Assembly: GCF_014174165.1 (NCBI RefSeq)
Contig: NZ_JABEQN010000011.1
Location: 1-64,000, forward strand
Direction of reading: 5' to 3'
Origin: Gluconacetobacter dulcium
Lineage (GTDB): Bacteria; Pseudomonadota; Alphaproteobacteria; Acetobacterales; Acetobacteraceae
DNA: 64,000 nt
This document shows positions 38,080-45,597 of the stretch, one piece after another; position 1 is the stretch's first letter; every line of letters starts with the position of its first letter. Under the pieces are notes generated by a model. It was not told where the DNA came from and ran no database searches. It saw only the letters and a program-made list of their open reading frames with translations. The position numbers were made by a program, and so were the translations under genes.

Positions 38080-38300
38080 GATCTCGGGCTTCGCAGCGCG
38101 GCCGCGACCTCCGCGATCAACCGCCGCATGCCGTCCTCGTCCACACCGATCAGCACCGCGTCCTCGAACGTGTCCCGCATGACCTCGCAAAGCTCGGCAT
38201 AATTCTCGTTCAGCACCCGGATCTTGTCCTGGCATGAAACCGGCGTGCCATCGGATTGCTGCCAGATCGCGGGCGGCGGCGGAAGCGCGGCCCCGCTCAT
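38076..38300 (-). CDS. Conserved small hypothetical protein
   Basis: A 74-aa soluble acidic protein I do not recognise. It contains two cysteines (residues about 23 and 38) and helical, Asp/Glu-rich sequence. It is locked into the operon by 4-base overlaps at both ends: its start lies in the mlaD stop and its stop in the DUF2155 start. That arrangement, more than its sequence, argues that it is real. Confidence 0.65.
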   Translation of the reverse strand: MSGAALPPPPAIWQQSDGTPVSCQDKIRVLNENYAELCEVMRDTFEDAVLIGVDEDGMRRLIAEVAAALRSPRS

Positions 38301-38878
38301 GGCTGGTCGCCGCCCCCGGTATGCCCTGCCGGAGCCTGCCCATTGTCCGGCGTCGCCGTTCCCTGGGACGCCGCCCCCTGGTTCGCGCGCTGCTGGTTGG
38401 CCTTGGTCATCGTATCCGTCACCGAGAAGATGAAGCGGCTGAGCAACTGCTCCAGGCTGATCGCCCCCTGGGTCTCGGTGATCGCGCCGCCGGGCTTCAG
38501 CATCGCATTGTCGGCTCCCGGTGACAGGGCGACATATTTGCCGCCCAGCAGGCTGTCGCTGGTGATGATGGCCGCGCTGTCGGTCGGCAAGTGCACGTCG
38601 GGGCTCACGGTAAAGGTCACCTGCGCCTGGAAGCTGGACGGATCGACGCGCTCGTCGACCACCTGCCCCACCGTCACCCCGGCCAGCCGCACATCCGACC
38701 CGACCGACAGCCCGTCGATATGGGCGAAGGACGCATGCAGCCGATAGCCGGATTCATGCCGCCGCCCCTTGTCGACCACCGCCAGGGCCAGAAGCCCGCC
38801 CAGCAGTACAAGAACCCCGCACCCGGCGGCGAGTTCGGCCGAACTCCGGCTCACCCGGCCTGCAACCGCACTGACCAT
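38297..38878 (-). CDS. mlaD: Outer membrane lipid asymmetry protein MlaD
   Basis: A 193-aa MCE-domain protein with one N-terminal membrane helix (about 14-36) and a single MCE domain (about 42-125) with Gly-Ser-Asp-Val-Arg-Leu-Ala-Gly-Val-x-Val-Gly and Leu-Leu-Gly-Gly-Lys-Tyr-Val motifs. The C-terminus is helical and then Gly/Pro-rich. MlaD is the periplasmic hexamer of the MlaFEDB phospholipid transporter. The other mla genes are not here. A frame reaches 39046, but ATG 38878 gives the correct N-terminus. Confidence 0.92.
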   Translation of the reverse strand: MVSAVAGRVSRSSAELAAGCGVLVLLGGLLALAVVDKGRRHESGYRLHASFAHIDGLSVGSDVRLAGVTVGQVVDERVDPSSFQAQVTFTVSPDVHLPTDSAAIITSDSLLGGKYVALSPGADNAMLKPGGAITETQGAISLEQLLSRFIFSVTDTMTKANQQRANQGAASQGTATPDNGQAPAGHTGGGDQP

Positions 38879-39095
38879 TCTGACTCTGTTCCCCAATTCA
38901 CAGCACGGAGACTGCGTAAAAACGGCCACCGCCGACCAGCCCCCGCCGGTCTCCGGGCGCCGGCGCACGGCCCGCGAGGCCGCTCCGATCCCCAAAGACA
39001 TACGCAGGCCGCTGCCGACCCAAGCCGCGCGCGACTCAGCATCCACAGCATTCAGGCAGTATCAGGGCGGACCTTAACAGGTTCCGCCCACCGTT

Positions 39096-39464
39096 TCACC
39101 CTTCGGGAATCCAGGCTTCGTAATCGCTGGTCGAGTCCGCGCGACGGCCACCGCGATAATCGCTTCCGGGCGGGCGATAGGCGTCCACCGTCCCGGTCCG
39201 GTTGCCCGGATACGGGATCTGCCAGGGCTGGCGCGCGCTCTCGGGCAGGGGCGCGTCATCGACATGGTGCAGCCACCCCCACCATTCGGGCGGCACGACC
39301 GAGGCATCCTCGCCCTTGTGATAGATGACCCAGCGCTCATGCCGCGTCAGGCCGCCACCGGTACGATTCGCGGTGCGCGCCTCGTAGTAGCACCGGCCAT
39401 CGGCATCCTTGCCGACCAGCCGACCCTTGAACCTGGTGTAGATACGGGTGCCGAGATTTGCCAT
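39096..39464 (-). CDS. NDUFA12-family complex I accessory protein
   Basis: A 122-aa NADH:ubiquinone oxidoreductase accessory subunit (NDUFA12/B17.2 type). Gly-Lys-Asp-Ala-Asp-Gly, Tyr-Tyr-Glu, Arg-Trp-Val-x-Tyr, Pro-Pro-Glu-Trp-x-x-Trp-Leu-His and the Pro-Tyr-Pro-Gly-Asn segment are the family pattern. It is a shared feature of alphaproteobacterial and mitochondrial complex I, and leads the mlaD/DUF2155 group. Confidence 0.93.
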   Translation of the reverse strand: MANLGTRIYTRFKGRLVGKDADGRCYYEARTANRTGGGLTRHERWVIYHKGEDASVVPPEWWGWLHHVDDAPLPESARQPWQIPYPGNRTGTVDAYRPPGSDYRGGRRADSTSDYEAWIPEG

Positions 39465-39567
39465 GCCCCGAGGATAACCCTCTTTCCGGCGGCCGGTCCA
39501 CCCGGCGGGGCGGGACTCGCCCGATCACAACTCCGGGATCGGGAAACCGCGAACTTATCCCCCATAT

Positions 39568-39616
39568 CCACAATATACAGTGGTCTGTATAGTCTGGGAC
39601 CCACCATATACGGCTT
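39568..39616 (+). promoter_or_regulatory. Probable NrdR box pair
   Basis: CCACAATATACAGTGG (39568-39583) matches the NrdR-box consensus acaCwAtATaTwGtgt at 13 of 16 positions by eye. A weaker copy with the same ATATAC core is at 39601-39616, starting 33 bases later, about three helical turns. The pair ends 35 bases before the start of the ribonucleotide-reductase-like gene. NrdR is the standard repressor of ribonucleotide reductase genes. Confidence 0.6.
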
Positions 39617-39651
39617 CCGCCCCGTCACGAAGCGGGCCTAGAGTGACTGCC

Positions 39652-41220
39652 ATGACAGCCCGAAGCCACTGGAACGGCGTGCGCATGCGTACCACGCAGG
39701 CCGCCGCGGACCCGGACGACGCTCTCCGCGCCGTCACCCTCCCCGCCGATTGGGATGACGAGGCGGCGGCGGCCCTGGCGCGCCTCGCGTCCGGCCGGGG
39801 GGCTGCCCGTCTGGCGACCGAAGCGGCACGCTGGGTGGACGACGTGGCCGTGGACGCGCTGGCCACGCAGGCCCGTTCGCTCTCCTGCCTGCTGATGCTG
39901 CGCCAGGCGGCCCCGACCGAGTCCCTGTGGACCGGCCAGCACGACCGGCGGCCGGGCTTCATCGTCAATCTGGCGGCCTTCGTCCAGCCCGGCAGCGGCT
40001 TCCTGGCCGAGGATTTCGTCGCCGCCCTGCGCCTGCTCTGCCAGGTCCTGCGCGACGTGACCGAACGCAAGGCGGCGCTGCGCAACGGCGAACTCCCCTT
40101 CCCCGACCTGGCCCCCCCGCCCCCGGCCCCACGCGGGCGCAAGGCCCGGCCCGAGGCCCCGCCGGCCGAGCCGCCGCCGATCGCCGGCGACCTGCTGATG
40201 ACCAATCTCGATGCCTGTCTGGCGGCATTGGGGCTGGATTACGACAGCGACGCCGGCCGCGACGTGGCCTGTAGCCTGGCCTCGCTGGCCACCTCGGTCG
40301 CCCATGCGGGATGCGGGGCCGACTCCCTGCTGCTCCCCCCCGCGCGCAGCACGGTGCCCGGCCTCGCCGAAACCGCGCGCGCCGTCTGGCGCGACGCGGC
40401 GGTCGAGACCGACGCCCCCCTGCCCCGCATCGAAACCGGCTTTTCCGCACCCGGCCCGATCGACGCCCTGCTGGGGGTGGAAGCCTGCGGCCTCGCCCCC
40501 ATCTTCTCGCCGCTCCGCCCGGACGGCCGGCTGGCCGCCAGCACCCTCTCCCGCCTGACGGCACGCGGCCTGACGCCCGAGGCCGCCTTCGCCGCCGCCC
40601 TGGCGGGCGAAAGCGTCCTGCCCCTGCCGGATATCGAGGCCCACAAGGCGATGCACCGCGCGCTGGCCGGCTTCGTCGACCGCATGCCCGCCCGTCCGGA
40701 CCCTTCGTCCATGCCCACCCTGCGCGCCCGGCTGGCGCTGGATCGCGGCGTGCGGCGGCACCTGCCGGCCCGCCATGGCGGCTTCACGCAGAAGGCCAGC
40801 GTCGGCGGCCACCGCCTGTTCCTCCGCACGGCGGAATATGAAGACGGCTCGCTGGGCGAAGTCACCATCACCCCGGCCCGCGAGGGGCCGATGACGCGCG
40901 GCCTGCTCGACGCGCTGGGCCAGGCCGTCAGCATCGGCCTGCAATATGGCGCGCCGCTGAACGATTACGTGGATGCCTTCGCCTATACCCGCTTCGGCCC
41001 CGCCGGCACGGTGGAGGGCGATCCGGTCGCCTCCTATGCGACCTCCATGCTCGATTATGCGTTCAGGGCCCTGTCGGACGCCTATCTGGGCCACAAGCTG
41101 CCCGACGCACCGCATCAGGACGACCTGACCGACACCCCGTCTCCGATGCTGCCGCTGGATTTTCCAGAGACAAAAGGGGACAATACCACCCGGCGCGGCA
41201 AACTTCGCCTGGTCGGCTAA
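39652..41220 (+). CDS. Orphan protein with the C-terminal module of B12-dependent ribonucleotide reductase
   Basis: A 522-aa protein. The last third (about 370-490) reads like the C-terminal region of NrdJ: Gly-Phe-Thr-Gln-Lys-Ala, Gly-Gly-His-Arg-Leu-Phe-Leu-Arg-Thr, Glu-Tyr-Glu-Asp-Gly-x-Leu-Gly-Glu, Ser-x-Gly-Leu-Gln-Tyr-Gly, Phe-x-x-Thr-Arg-Phe-Gly-Pro-Ala-Gly and a Ser-Met-Leu-Asp-Tyr segment. The catalytic ten-stranded barrel and the C-terminal CxxC electron shuttle are absent. The first 370 residues are Ala/Leu-rich helices with a Pro-rich linker near 165-185. It cannot be a complete reductase; a regulatory or accessory role is inferred, supported by NrdR boxes upstream. Start ATG 39652. 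Confidence 0.75.
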   Translation: MTARSHWNGVRMRTTQAAADPDDALRAVTLPADWDDEAAAALARLASGRGAARLATEAARWVDDVAVDALATQARSLSCLLMLRQAAPTESLWTGQHDRRPGFIVNLAAFVQPGSGFLAEDFVAALRLLCQVLRDVTERKAALRNGELPFPDLAPPPPAPRGRKARPEAPPAEPPPIAGDLLMTNLDACLAALGLDYDSDAGRDVACSLASLATSVAHAGCGADSLLLPPARSTVPGLAETARAVWRDAAVETDAPLPRIETGFSAPGPIDALLGVEACGLAPIFSPLRPDGRLAASTLSRLTARGLTPEAAFAAALAGESVLPLPDIEAHKAMHRALAGFVDRMPARPDPSSMPTLRARLALDRGVRRHLPARHGGFTQKASVGGHRLFLRTAEYEDGSLGEVTITPAREGPMTRGLLDALGQAVSIGLQYGAPLNDYVDAFAYTRFGPAGTVEGDPVASYATSMLDYAFRALSDAYLGHKLPDAPHQDDLTDTPSPMLPLDFPETKGDNTTRRGKLRLVG

Positions 41221-41258: not shown

Positions 41259-41723
41259 ATGACCGACACCCCCGAAACCCGCCTGGACCGGCACGGCATC
41301 ATCCTGCCCGTGCCCCCCGCCCCCGTCGCCACCTATGTCGCCAGCGTCCTCAGCGGCTCGCTGCTGGTCGTCTCCGGCCAGTTGCCATTGCTCGACGGCA
41401 AGCTGTTCGCCACCGGCAAGCTCGGCGCCGATGTCGCGGTCGAAGTCGGGGTCGAGGCCGCCCGCTACGCCATGATCAACGTCATCGCCCAGGTCCGCGC
41501 CGCCGTGGGCGACCTCTCGCGGGTCCGCCGCGTGGTCCGGCTGGGCGGCTTCATTTCCTGCGTCCCCAGCTTCACCCAGCATGCCACGGTCATGAACGGC
41601 GCGTCCGACCTCGCGGTCGCGATCTTCGGCGAGGCCGGGCGGCACGCCCGCTCCACCATCGGCGTCCCCTCCCTGCCGCTCGACGCCGCCGTCGAGGTCG
41701 AGGGCCTGTTCGAGATCGCCTGA
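41259..41723 (+). CDS. RidA family protein
   Basis: A 154-aa RidA-superfamily protein of the longer type (YjgF-like with an N-terminal Leu-Pro-x-Pro-Pro-Ala-Pro). The Leu-Val-Val-Ser-Gly-Gln strand, Asn-Val-Ile-Ala-Gln and the C-terminal Ala-Arg-Ser-Thr-Ile-Gly-Val-x-Ser-Leu-Pro with the ligand-binding Arg are present. It lies 38 bases behind the reductase-like gene and 14 ahead of the GNAT gene, so the three may be cotranscribed. Its last 19 bases, including the stop, are repeated at 44288-44306. Confidence 0.9.
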   Translation: MTDTPETRLDRHGIILPVPPAPVATYVASVLSGSLLVVSGQLPLLDGKLFATGKLGADVAVEVGVEAARYAMINVIAQVRAAVGDLSRVRRVVRLGGFISCVPSFTQHATVMNGASDLAVAIFGEAGRHARSTIGVPSLPLDAAVEVEGLFEIA

Positions 41724-41737
41724 CCGGCGGCCCGATC

Positions 41738-42895
41738 ATGACCGCCCTGACCCTGAGCCTGCATCCCGCCATCGCCGACATCCCGGCGACGGAGTGGGAT
41801 GCCTGCGCCGGCCCCGACAATCCGTTCGTCAGCCACGCCTTTCTCTCGGCCCTGGAAGACAGCGGATCGACCGGCTCGCGCACCGGCTGGCTGCCGCAGC
41901 ACGCCGCCATCCGCGACTCCGCCGGCCGGCTGCTGGCGGCGGCGCCGATGTACGCCAAGCCGCATTCCTACGGCGAATACGTCTTCGACCAGAGCTGGGC
42001 TCGCGCGTTCGAACAGGCCGGCGGCGACTACTACCCCAAATTGCAGGTCGCGGTCCCCTTCTCCCCGGTGCCAGGCCCGCGCCTGCTGGTGCGCGACGAC
42101 GTGGCGGACCGGCCCGGCCTGCGCCAGGCCCTGGCCGGCGCCCTGAGTCAGGCCGCTACCGAACTGGGCGTCTCCTCGGTCCACGTCACCTTCTGCTCCG
42201 AGGACGACTACACGTCGCTGGGCGAAGCCGGCTGGCTGCAACGGCTGGGCGTCCAGTTCCATTGGGACAATGCCGGCTACACCAGCTTCGACGATTTCCT
42301 GGCCACCCTCGCCTCGCGCAAGCGCAAGGTCCTGAAGCGCGAGCGGCGGGACGCCAATCAGTGCGGCCTCACCTTCCGCACCGTGCAGGGCCGCGCGATC
42401 ACGCCCGATCTCTGGGCGCATTTCTACCGGTTCTACACCGCCACGATTGATCGCAAATGGGGCAGCGCCTACCTCACGCCCGAATTTTTCCCCCTGCTGT
42501 CCGAACGGCTGGGCGACCGGGTGGTGCTGATGCTGGCCGAACGCGACGGCACGCCCGTGGCGGGCGCGCTCAACCTGATGGGCACCGACACGCTCTACGG
42601 CCGCAACTGGGGCTGCGACGGCGACTATCCGTTCCTGCATTTCGAACTCTGCTATTACCGCGCGATTGATTTCGCCATCGCCCACGGCCTGCGCCGGGTC
42701 GAAGCCGGGGCGCAGGGCCAGCACAAGATCCAGCGCGGCTACCGCCCCACCCCCACCTATTCCGCCCACTGGATCGCCCACTCCGGCCTCCGCCGCGCGG
42801 TCGCCGAATTCGTGACCCACGAACGCGAAGCCATGCTGCACGACATGGCGGAACTGGACGCACAATCGCCCTACCGCACGGCGGGCGAAGACTGA
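41738..42895 (+). CDS. FemAB-like GNAT-fold acyltransferase (DUF482)
   Basis: A 385-aa protein of the FemAB_like/DUF482 GNAT family. It has the N-terminal Pro-Phe-Val-Ser-His-Ala-Phe-Leu motif, Tyr-Gly-Glu-Tyr-Val-Phe-Asp, the Gln-Phe-His-Trp-x-Asn segment and Lys-Ile-Gln-Arg-Gly-Tyr-x-Pro-Thr-x-Thr-Tyr-Ser-x-His. Members are predicted N-acyltransferases without a settled substrate. A terminator-type hairpin starts 7 bases past the stop. A decayed partial copy lies 1.4 kb downstream. Confidence 0.9.
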   Translation: MTALTLSLHPAIADIPATEWDACAGPDNPFVSHAFLSALEDSGSTGSRTGWLPQHAAIRDSAGRLLAAAPMYAKPHSYGEYVFDQSWARAFEQAGGDYYPKLQVAVPFSPVPGPRLLVRDDVADRPGLRQALAGALSQAATELGVSSVHVTFCSEDDYTSLGEAGWLQRLGVQFHWDNAGYTSFDDFLATLASRKRKVLKRERRDANQCGLTFRTVQGRAITPDLWAHFYRFYTATIDRKWGSAYLTPEFFPLLSERLGDRVVLMLAERDGTPVAGALNLMGTDTLYGRNWGCDGDYPFLHFELCYYRAIDFAIAHGLRRVEAGAQGQHKIQRGYRPTPTYSAHWIAHSGLRRAVAEFVTHEREAMLHDMAELDAQSPYRTAGED

Positions 42896-44110: not shown

Positions 44111-44287
44111 GGCGACCTCCTTGGCTGATGATCGGCACCTCGCGACACCGATCGGGTTTAATCTTTAATACGATTACGAAAGAAAAACAACATTTTGATA
44201 CATTTCTTGCCCGATCACATTTCTTTGACGAGTGAGGCTGGACATACCTCATATCAAAGCAAGACCAACTCACCTTGAGTCTGACAC

Positions 44288-44651
44288 CCTGTTCGAGGTC
44301 GCCTGACCTGGACCGGCTGGCTGCCGCAGCACGCCGCCATCCGCGACCCCGCCGGCCGCCTGCTGGCGGCGGCGCCGATGTACGTCAAGCCGCATTCCAA
44401 CGGCGAATATGTCTTCGACCAGATCTGGGCCCGCGCGTTCGAACAGGCAGGCGGCGACTACTACCCCAAATTGCAGGTCGCGGTCCCCTTCTCCCCGGTG
44501 CCAGGCCCGCGCCTGTTGGTGCGCGACGACGCGGCGGCCCGGCCTCCGCCGCGCGGTCGCCGAATTCATGGCCCACGAACGCGAAGCCATGCTGCACGAC
44601 ATGGCAGAACTGGACGCACAGTCGCCCTACCGCGCGGCGGGCGAAGACTGA
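44288..44651 (+). pseudogene. Decayed copy of the RidA end and GNAT gene
   Basis: 44288-44308 repeats 41705-41725 (end of the RidA gene) with one mismatch. 44312-44545 repeats 41882-42120 of the GNAT gene, and 44539-44658 repeats 42783-42901 through the stop and the following GAAAGCCT. Two large deletions and a small one have removed the start and the middle. One large junction is at a shared CCGGCCT (44539-44545). The two halves are in different frames, so no functional protein is made. Confidence 0.9.
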
Positions 44652-44655
44652 AAGC

Positions 44656-45597
44656 CTATGCTTTCCCTCCCGGCGCGGTCGCGGGCTTGCAGAGCAGGTC
44701 GATGTCACCCTGAAGGCTCGTTTTCATCACGCTATCCCACACGTCAGACGCAAATTCCGGCGTCGCCTGTTCGCTGAGACGCACCACCCCCACCGCGCCG
44801 GGTGAAAAGCCCGGCAATCGCCGCATCCCAAGCCGGCCGGGCGGGGGCACCCGCAACGGAAAAGACGAAATCGGCAGAATGGTGGCGACCTTTCCGGTCA
44901 TGACCTGCGCATGGATCAATTCCAGCGAATTCGTCTCCAGGCGAATCATCGGTTCGATATCGACCGTCTGAAATCCCACATCCACCAGTTGCCGGCAGCG
45001 CATTTCCCTGGTCAGCAGCGCAAGCGGCAATCGGGCCGCCGCCTCCCAGCTTATATCGTCTCCCTCAGGAAGCTGAAACACGCTGGACGCCGCCAGAACC
45101 TGCTGTTCGGCATACAGCGTGCGAACCTGGAACGCTTTCGCCTGCGGGCACTGATCGTAATACATGATCCCGATATCAAGCTCCTTGCTGGCCAGTTTCT
45201 CGATGATCGCCCCGTTGGGCAGCACATGCACCTCGCTTGCGAAATCGCCGCATCGCGCCTGCACGGCATCCAGCAGGAGCGGGACGATATGCACGGCAGT
45301 CGGGATGACGCCGATCCTGGCGATCCCCGCGATCGCCTGCTTCGCCACCGAGACCTCATTCCGCAGTTCGCTGACCCCTCTGAGGATGTCGTGCGCCCAT
45401 TTGAGAACGCGCCCCCCATCATCCGTAATCCCGAACATTTTTTTCTTGCGATCGACGATGACGACGCCCAGTTCGTCCTCCAACTGGCGGATGGCGCGGG
45501 ACAGCGCAGGCTGCGACACGCCGCACGCCGTGGCCGCCTTGGAAAAACTCTTGTAGCGTTCGATTTCACGCAGGTACTGCAACTGCTTCAGAAACAT
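44656..45597 (-). CDS. LysR family transcriptional regulator
   Basis: A 313-aa LysR-type regulator. The winged helix-turn-helix is at about 3-62, with Ser-Phe-Ser-Lys-Ala-Ala and Val-Ser-Gln-Pro-Ala-Leu-Ser-Arg-Ala-Ile. The C-terminal periplasmic-binding-like effector domain runs from about 90. AAGGAG lies 6 bases before ATG 45597. It is 120 bases downstream of fdhD on the same strand, so it may regulate the molybdoenzyme genes or simply be their neighbour. Its stop is 4 bases from the decayed GNAT copy. Confidence 0.93.
   Translation of the reverse strand: MFLKQLQYLREIERYKSFSKAATACGVSQPALSRAIRQLEDELGVVIVDRKKKMFGITDDGGRVLKWAHDILRGVSELRNEVSVAKQAIAGIARIGVIPTAVHIVPLLLDAVQARCGDFASEVHVLPNGAIIEKLASKELDIGIMYYDQCPQAKAFQVRTLYAEQQVLAASSVFQLPEGDDISWEAAARLPLALLTREMRCRQLVDVGFQTVDIEPMIRLETNSLELIHAQVMTGKVATILPISSFPLRVPPPGRLGMRRLPGFSPGAVGVVRLSEQATPEFASDVWDSVMKTSLQGDIDLLCKPATAPGGKA

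Follow-up and report, generated by a model that had tools for sequence, protein, structure and literature searches.

A gene of Gluconacetobacter dulcium, at 39652–41220 on the forward strand of the 64,000-nucleotide stretch analysed here (contig NZ_JABEQN010000011.1, positions 1 to 64,000; hereafter the window), encodes a 522-amino-acid (aa) protein that we term pseudo-NrdJ (ATG start, stop codon included in the coordinates). By sequence comparison, the protein is a degenerate, shortened NrdJ, the B12-dependent class II ribonucleotide reductase (RNR), with its catalytic motifs lost, and the gene is an nrdJ eroded in its ancestral place. It is rather likely, in our judgement, that this pseudo-reductase has been kept for a non-catalytic role. 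Underlying this explanation are the observed homology to NrdJ, loss of the catalytic motifs, genomic place, retention among relatives and selection within the window genus.

Homology and genomic place of pseudo-NrdJ

The TSCPD region of NrdJ lies at 40744–41097 (residues 365–482; the parts of the protein are all given on the forward strand). PF12637 (TSCPD), the sole Pfam domain, is matched at residues 387–478 (E = 4.5 × 10−10), and the NrdJ equivalog model NF005736 with E = 1.8 × 10−43, best over residues 367–482 and far below the model's cut-off. A preliminary description of the window had claimed the 522-aa frame and its likeness to the C-terminal region of NrdJ, and both hold. It had also called the protein an orphan C-terminal module with no catalytic barrel, and neither statement is borne out. 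A profile of 51 orthologues (the window sequence and 50 of the 69 other orthologue loci fetched) matches the barrel of the solved B12-dependent RNRs 7b9q/7b9p, residues 492–696 (E = 1.5 × 10−8). Aligned with 18 intact NrdJ sequences, residues 105–495 of pseudo-NrdJ correspond to NrdJ 495–1099 (hhalign; probability 100%, E = 4 × 10−57, the E-values of this program referring here to a comparison of two profiles only). The Pfam barrel model PF02867 is matched by 6 of the 51 profile members and PF12637 by all 51. The 7b9q/7b9p, PF02867 and NrdJ alignments place what remains of the RNR barrel, its second half in degenerate form, at 39964–40506 (residues 105–285); the NrdJ alignment also covers the TSCPD region.

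Residues 4–44 align with NrdJ 12–57, weakly on their own (probability 4.9%, E = 0.008) and collinear with the main alignment; blastp supports this piece (locus L139, residues 39–57, E = 0.003), and we regard 39661–39783 as a probable remnant of the NrdJ N-terminus. The alignment of residues 77–93 with NrdJ 140–156 is likewise collinear and not significant. Because barrel and TSCPD run collinear with NrdJ, pseudo-NrdJ is a degenerate NrdJ and not a C-terminal module joined to foreign sequence; a foreign origin of the first 370 residues is rejected, residues 105–495 aligning strongly and 4–44 weakly, in order. The profile similarity that had been proposed as a check on NrdJ ancestry is strong, and what had been taken for an orphan module is a shrunken nrdJ, in position, with barrel remnants. 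The NrdJ regions missing are approximately 157–494, which holds PHACF and NPCxE, and most of approximately 713–870.

Five motifs were tested: PHACF, NPCxE, ACNL and PTGT, here called the four catalytic motifs, plus the zinc tail CxxC...CxxC. PHACF and ACNL supply the redox cysteine pair, and NPCxE is the loop of the thiyl-radical cysteine. From families other than the Acetobacteraceae ('the family' below), 20 nrdJ-type loci were fetched at first, and 18 of them have all five motifs, L139 and L149 being without the four catalytic ones. None of the 70 fetched family members has PHACF, NPCxE, ACNL or the zinc tail; the phosphate loop is loosely matched, as P[TS]G[TS], in three. The absence of a terminal CxxC from the window protein, noted in the preliminary description, is confirmed, and none of the tested catalytic motifs is present in it either. 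The TSCPD core pattern fits 60 of the 70 members. Intact NrdJ has 67 invariant TSCPD positions, and 36 of them stay conserved in 88% or more of 17 family rows (a count made with locus L065 left out). The pseudo-NrdJ gene is the only TSCPD match in the source genome, and a single-sequence search found no significant solved relative for its TSCPD domain. AlphaFold2 predicts a fold with confidence (mean predicted local distance difference test score (pLDDT) 87.0, predicted template modelling score 0.73, 450 of 522 residues with a pLDDT of at least 70); confidence is low in the linker at about 141–170, at about 351–370 and from about 491 to the C-terminal end.

The gene stands in the divergent NDUFA12/MlaD neighbourhood that intact nrdJ occupies at most of the other alphaproteobacterial loci examined, which argues that nrdJ was eroded in place. 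The divergent NDUFA12-family gene (39096–39464, minus strand) and the MlaD-domain gene (38297–38968, minus strand; start codon uncertain) are common neighbours of nrdJ loci. Downstream, a RidA/YjgF-like gene (41259–41723, plus strand) and a FemAB-like gene (41738–42895, plus strand) are common to a few. In the 20 nrdJ-type loci from other families, NDUFA12 lies divergently, no more than about 2 kb upstream, in 15; RidA is found downstream in L139, L143 and L156, and FemAB in L139. Loci L146, L147, L157 and L158 have none of these neighbours in the fetched stretch. At 44275–44660, approximately 1.4 kb downstream of the intact FemAB-like gene, the open reading frame translations show what by eye resembles a shortened second copy of it.

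Elsewhere the source genome has one RNR barrel gene, a 645-aa NrdA-like frame; the 644-aa protein ends in CLACQ, resembling the cysteine pair with which class I NrdA terminates. From this sequence we infer that the resident NrdA is class I-like. The two-piece barrel match shown by this NrdA is found in 58 of 60 family genomes, the exceptions being G013, with a 927-aa reductase frame, and G143, with frames of 900 and 832 aa; strong barrel matches in these 60 genomes fall in frames of 616–927 aa. In G095 a weak barrel match (E = 2.9 × 10−4) lies inside the 1060-aa frame of its pseudo-nrdJ. No match to the NrdJ model above its cut-off was found in the family genomes, a weak test because control genomes fail the cut-off too.

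Retention, selection and dead nrdJ genes in other families

Pseudo-NrdJ is widely retained. With the single protein as query, 362 of 397 genomes gave a match, spread over 93 of 102 genera. With the profile, 288 of 299 genomes did so, from 61 of 65 genera, and every row listed there is from the Acetobacteraceae. Across the class, 160 of 232 genomes match; outside the family, among the matches listed, the frames are mostly of NrdJ length, and shorter ones are described below, apart from one of 558 aa that a contig end truncates. Among the best 80 of 589 matches in a genome collection, all four catalytic motifs are present in 57, and the short version is found in Komagataeibacter, Acetobacter, Saccharibacter, Gluconobacter and Acidocella. 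Two loci of Acidisoma, L280 (1196-aa frame) and L252, have NrdJ-type frames with all five motifs. Within the window genus, the protein is under purifying selection: the median ratio of non-synonymous to synonymous substitution rates (dN/dS; 36 pairs of 9 loci) is 0.21 for the whole gene, 0.115 for TSCPD and 0.162 for the barrel part, with regional medians from 0.115 to 0.26.

We identified eight loci in seven other families in which the four catalytic motifs are gone and blastp matches the TSCPD region of the window protein. The encoded proteins range from long (L149, ~1120 aa; L139, 912; L170 and L171, 812; L172, 811) to short (L173, 301; L174, 280; L175, 277 aa). Four (L139, L170, L172 and L173) keep the zinc tail. 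The TSCPD core pattern is not matched by the three short proteins. NDUFA12 adjoins seven of the eight, and L139 has RidA and FemAB; because these dead loci share the nrdJ place, transfer of a dead copy is argued against. A two-piece NrdA is present in all eight genomes with a dead nrdJ versus 7 of 18 with an intact one (Fisher's exact test, P = 0.0074), in a comparison that covers 26 of 30 genomes (the nrdJ locus was not fetched for G517, G518, G491 and G596) and that ignores relatedness, which counts against leaning on it. A 528-aa frame at L239 was rejected as a dead NrdJ, since it starts inside conserved NrdJ sequence, and was taken as a broken frame. Frames of 860–882 aa of NrdJ type in Brevundimonas (L263) and in metagenome-assembled genomes of Phenylobacterium (L285) and another member of the Caulobacterales (L304) are without the three active-site cysteine motifs; the NrdJ of Caulobacter crescentus is given as CCNA_01966 in an excerpt of a published study (PMC6538847).

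Loss of catalysis with TSCPD kept probably happened more than once. On an RpoB tree, one clade of dead-nrdJ carriers is rejected by the approximately unbiased (AU) test (p-AU = 7.8 × 10−5, or 1.1 × 10−4 with the long-branched G452 outside the constrained group), the carrier label needs five changes, and one change suffices in none of 200 bootstrap trees. This tree has 27 of 28 rows (G598 was dropped for lack of the motif by which frames were chosen); its dead-nrdJ genomes are G609, G580, G673, G647, G452 and G473 together with three of the family, without G598 and G663. The starred branches of the RpoB tree force only two changes by themselves, and on TSCPD a tree that leaves out L065 is compatible with one origin (p-AU = 0.37 for all carriers and 0.366 for those outside the family), an earlier TSCPD tree needing six changes of which starred branches force one; these results weigh against repeated loss. 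A single origin of all carriers is thus rejected on RpoB, and the short TSCPD tree does not decide. Also to be set against a general role for TSCPD, the genus g45 (L181, 4704–6164; L182, 4889–6535) keeps barrel similarity with no TSCPD match, and in the genus g62 (L178 and L183) blastp found no homologue at the locus, so that any job of TSCPD is not universal.

NrdR-like boxes and a second upstream element

Upstream of the gene are two 16-bp NrdR-like boxes, CCACAATATACAGTGG at 39568–39583 and CCACCATATACGGCTT at 39601–39616 (both plus strand), the second beginning 33 bases after the first and leaving a 17-bp spacer. They were scored with a matrix trained on 26 family nrdA upstream sequences (out of 31; L104–L108, with less than 60% identity to the own NrdA, were left out) and seeded with a 16-base NrdR consensus. 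Tested with 200 dinucleotide shuffles, box 1 and the pair each reach P = 0.005, the lowest value that this test can give; both boxes stand where they had first been read. The spacer falls within functional NrdR spacing: tested NrdR proteins bind box pairs with spacers of 14–17 bp, according to an excerpt of the study concerned (PMC12051234). The excerpted text of a study that counts NrdR regulons (PMC5343134) does not name nrdJ. NrdR is encoded in the source genome (G000:C4:104934-105368) and was found in 22 of 23 genomes searched.

We examined 49 of the 70 orthologue upstream sequences, the other 21 being relatives of ones used. The pair reaches P ≤ 0.01 in 13 and P ≤ 0.05 in 15; 0 of 48 control stretches has a pair (one of 49 was too short). 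Four of the 13 passing pairs are from the window genus, with a spacing of 33, and nine loci of eight other genera have a spacing of 32; in 12 of these 13 upstream sequences box 1 sits 80–84 bases ahead of the ATG, and the pair of L063 starts 132 bases before the start codon used. At P ≤ 0.01 the pair is also seen at 12 of the 20 nrdJ-type loci; 11 of these 12 belong to the set of 18 intact genes. The pair fails this threshold in 36 of the 49 family loci, ten of them in genomes with NrdR (G060, G030, G048, G323, G122, G032, G046, G070, G056 and G071), which argues that NrdR control is not a fixed family trait. The claim that an incomplete reductase stands behind reductase-type boxes therefore survives for the source genome, with its pair, its 17-bp spacer and its NrdR, and not for the family; conservation of the boxes upstream of orthologues extends to nine genera and stops short of the 36 failing loci. 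In the single genome searched without NrdR, G029, there is no NrdR-like box before the orthologue (L065).

A second upstream element, TTATCCCCCATATCC at 39555–39569 (plus strand), overlaps box 1 by two bases and is conserved in position: TTATCC(A/C)C(C/A)NTATCC occurs in 51 of 70 orthologue upstream sequences, many of them close relatives, and 48 of these lie 94–98 bases before the ATG. This element is the only exact match to TTATCCMCMATATCC in its own genome, and we take TTATCCCCCATATCC to resemble DnaA boxes. At L046, L049 and L051 the element reads TTATCCACAATATCC, which contains a DnaA-box consensus. A promoter scan upstream of the pseudo-NrdJ gene found no sigma-70-like site.

Possible role and comparison with known systems

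The explanation that we favour would run as follows. In the pseudo-NrdJ lineage, the class I-like NrdA would make the deoxyribonucleoside triphosphates (dNTPs), so that the catalytic job would lie with NrdA, and internal deletions would have taken the first half of the catalytic domain of NrdJ and most of the barrel end. What was kept is predicted to fold: TSCPD, the second barrel half in degenerate form and, probably, a piece of the N-terminus. Its retention would reflect a second, non-catalytic job of intact NrdJ, carried mainly by the TSCPD region and most likely that of a protein-binding or oligomer-forming scaffold tied to dNTP supply or replication. In the window genus, a shortage of dNTPs, by releasing NrdR, would probably switch on the production of pseudo-NrdJ. 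More broadly, we give about even chances to the idea that class II reductase in Alphaproteobacteria has two jobs: besides the making of dNTPs, its TSCPD region would do something that many cells need after another reductase has taken over, nrdJ being whittled in place, in several lineages, to 277 to ~1120 aa with no active site and TSCPD kept, with exceptions such as g45. For the cysteine-rich C-terminal domain of NrdJd, an involvement in oligomer formation and electron transfer is described in an excerpt of a published report (PMC5704485); electron transfer by that route is excluded for pseudo-NrdJ because its cysteines are gone.

Several findings speak against the favoured explanation. In the class, 72 of the 232 genomes are without a match, and the NrdR-type pair fails at most of the family loci tested. 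In addition, the match in G126 has an internal stop, and those in G136 and G286 are in two pieces.

It is possible, if unlikely, that pseudo-NrdJ is an accessory or allosteric partner of the resident class I-like reductase, adjusting its activity or oligomer state by binding to NrdA or NrdB. Such a partner would fit the NrdR-type pair, which nrdA also has and which stands at loci of the window genus and of eight further genera, the two-piece NrdA of 58 of the 60 family genomes and of all eight dead-nrdJ genomes elsewhere, and the oligomer role given for the NrdJd C-terminal domain in the same excerpt (PMC5704485). However, the co-occurrence of NrdA and pseudo-NrdJ is equally predicted by takeover by NrdA, and the pair is missing at most loci tested. 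We consider it very improbable that the protein is a functionless relic, decaying slowly and kept by its place beside conserved genes. Lost catalytic motifs, a linker and C-terminal tail that vary among orthologues, erosion of nrdJ in several families and the interrupted matches just listed would suit a relic, whereas the dN/dS of 0.21, the conserved share of the TSCPD positions, the confident predicted fold and full-length open frames in all 70 fetched loci (picked from listed matches without stops) do not. That it is a split-reductase subunit like Pseudomonas NrdJb, completing a separate NrdJa, is hardly credible and rejected, as no separate catalytic NrdJ gene was found in the source genome, whose only RNR barrel gene is the one NrdA-like frame, and as pseudo-NrdJ has no cysteine-rich tail and holds barrel remnants in the same chain as TSCPD.

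In the literature searched, by titles and abstract starts and with longer result lists covered in part, we found no description of such a protein and no paper pairing NrdJ with Acetobacteraceae; TSCPD is hardly named and, on the same basis, never the subject. A C-terminal 'HUG' domain has reportedly been found to stabilize NrdJd dimers. A dead NrdJ that keeps TSCPD would separate the function of TSCPD from ribonucleotide reduction, in a form testable in culturable acetic acid bacteria (for Gluconobacter oxydans there is a collection of transposon knock-outs, PMC12041372), and, if the two-job idea is true, the series of dead nrdJ genes would be natural separation-of-function mutants. Likeness to 'vitamin B12-dependent ribonucleotide reductase' does not ensure that a gene encodes an active enzyme, which calls for caution when B12 dependence is inferred from genomes.

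Known systems resemble pseudo-NrdJ in part. Like the stand-alone TSCPD proteins of TIGR03905, it has a TSCPD domain; unlike them it has NrdJ barrel remnants, and TIGR03905 is not among its NCBIfam matches up to E = 1. With NrdJb of split class II reductases it shares a C-terminal region without an active site, but it differs in having barrel remnants, no cysteine tail and no catalytic NrdJ partner in the genome. UL45 of human cytomegalovirus, a herpesvirus protein related to the RNR large subunit, is likewise an inactive homologue retained for a different job, although, as far as an excerpt of the source goes (PMC5469499), it is viral and acts in host signalling, whereas pseudo-NrdJ is bacterial, derived from class II and in the ancestral gene place. 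The closest comparison is with NrdJd itself: pseudo-NrdJ has the second barrel half and then TSCPD in the same order and sits in the same genomic place, and the NrdR-type pair is also found upstream of intact nrdJ (11 of 18 at P ≤ 0.01), but at ~520 aa, against ~1220 aa for NrdJd, it has neither a zinc tail nor the cysteines of the thiyl radical and redox pair, and its family has lost the phosphate loop, save for the three loose matches in 70.
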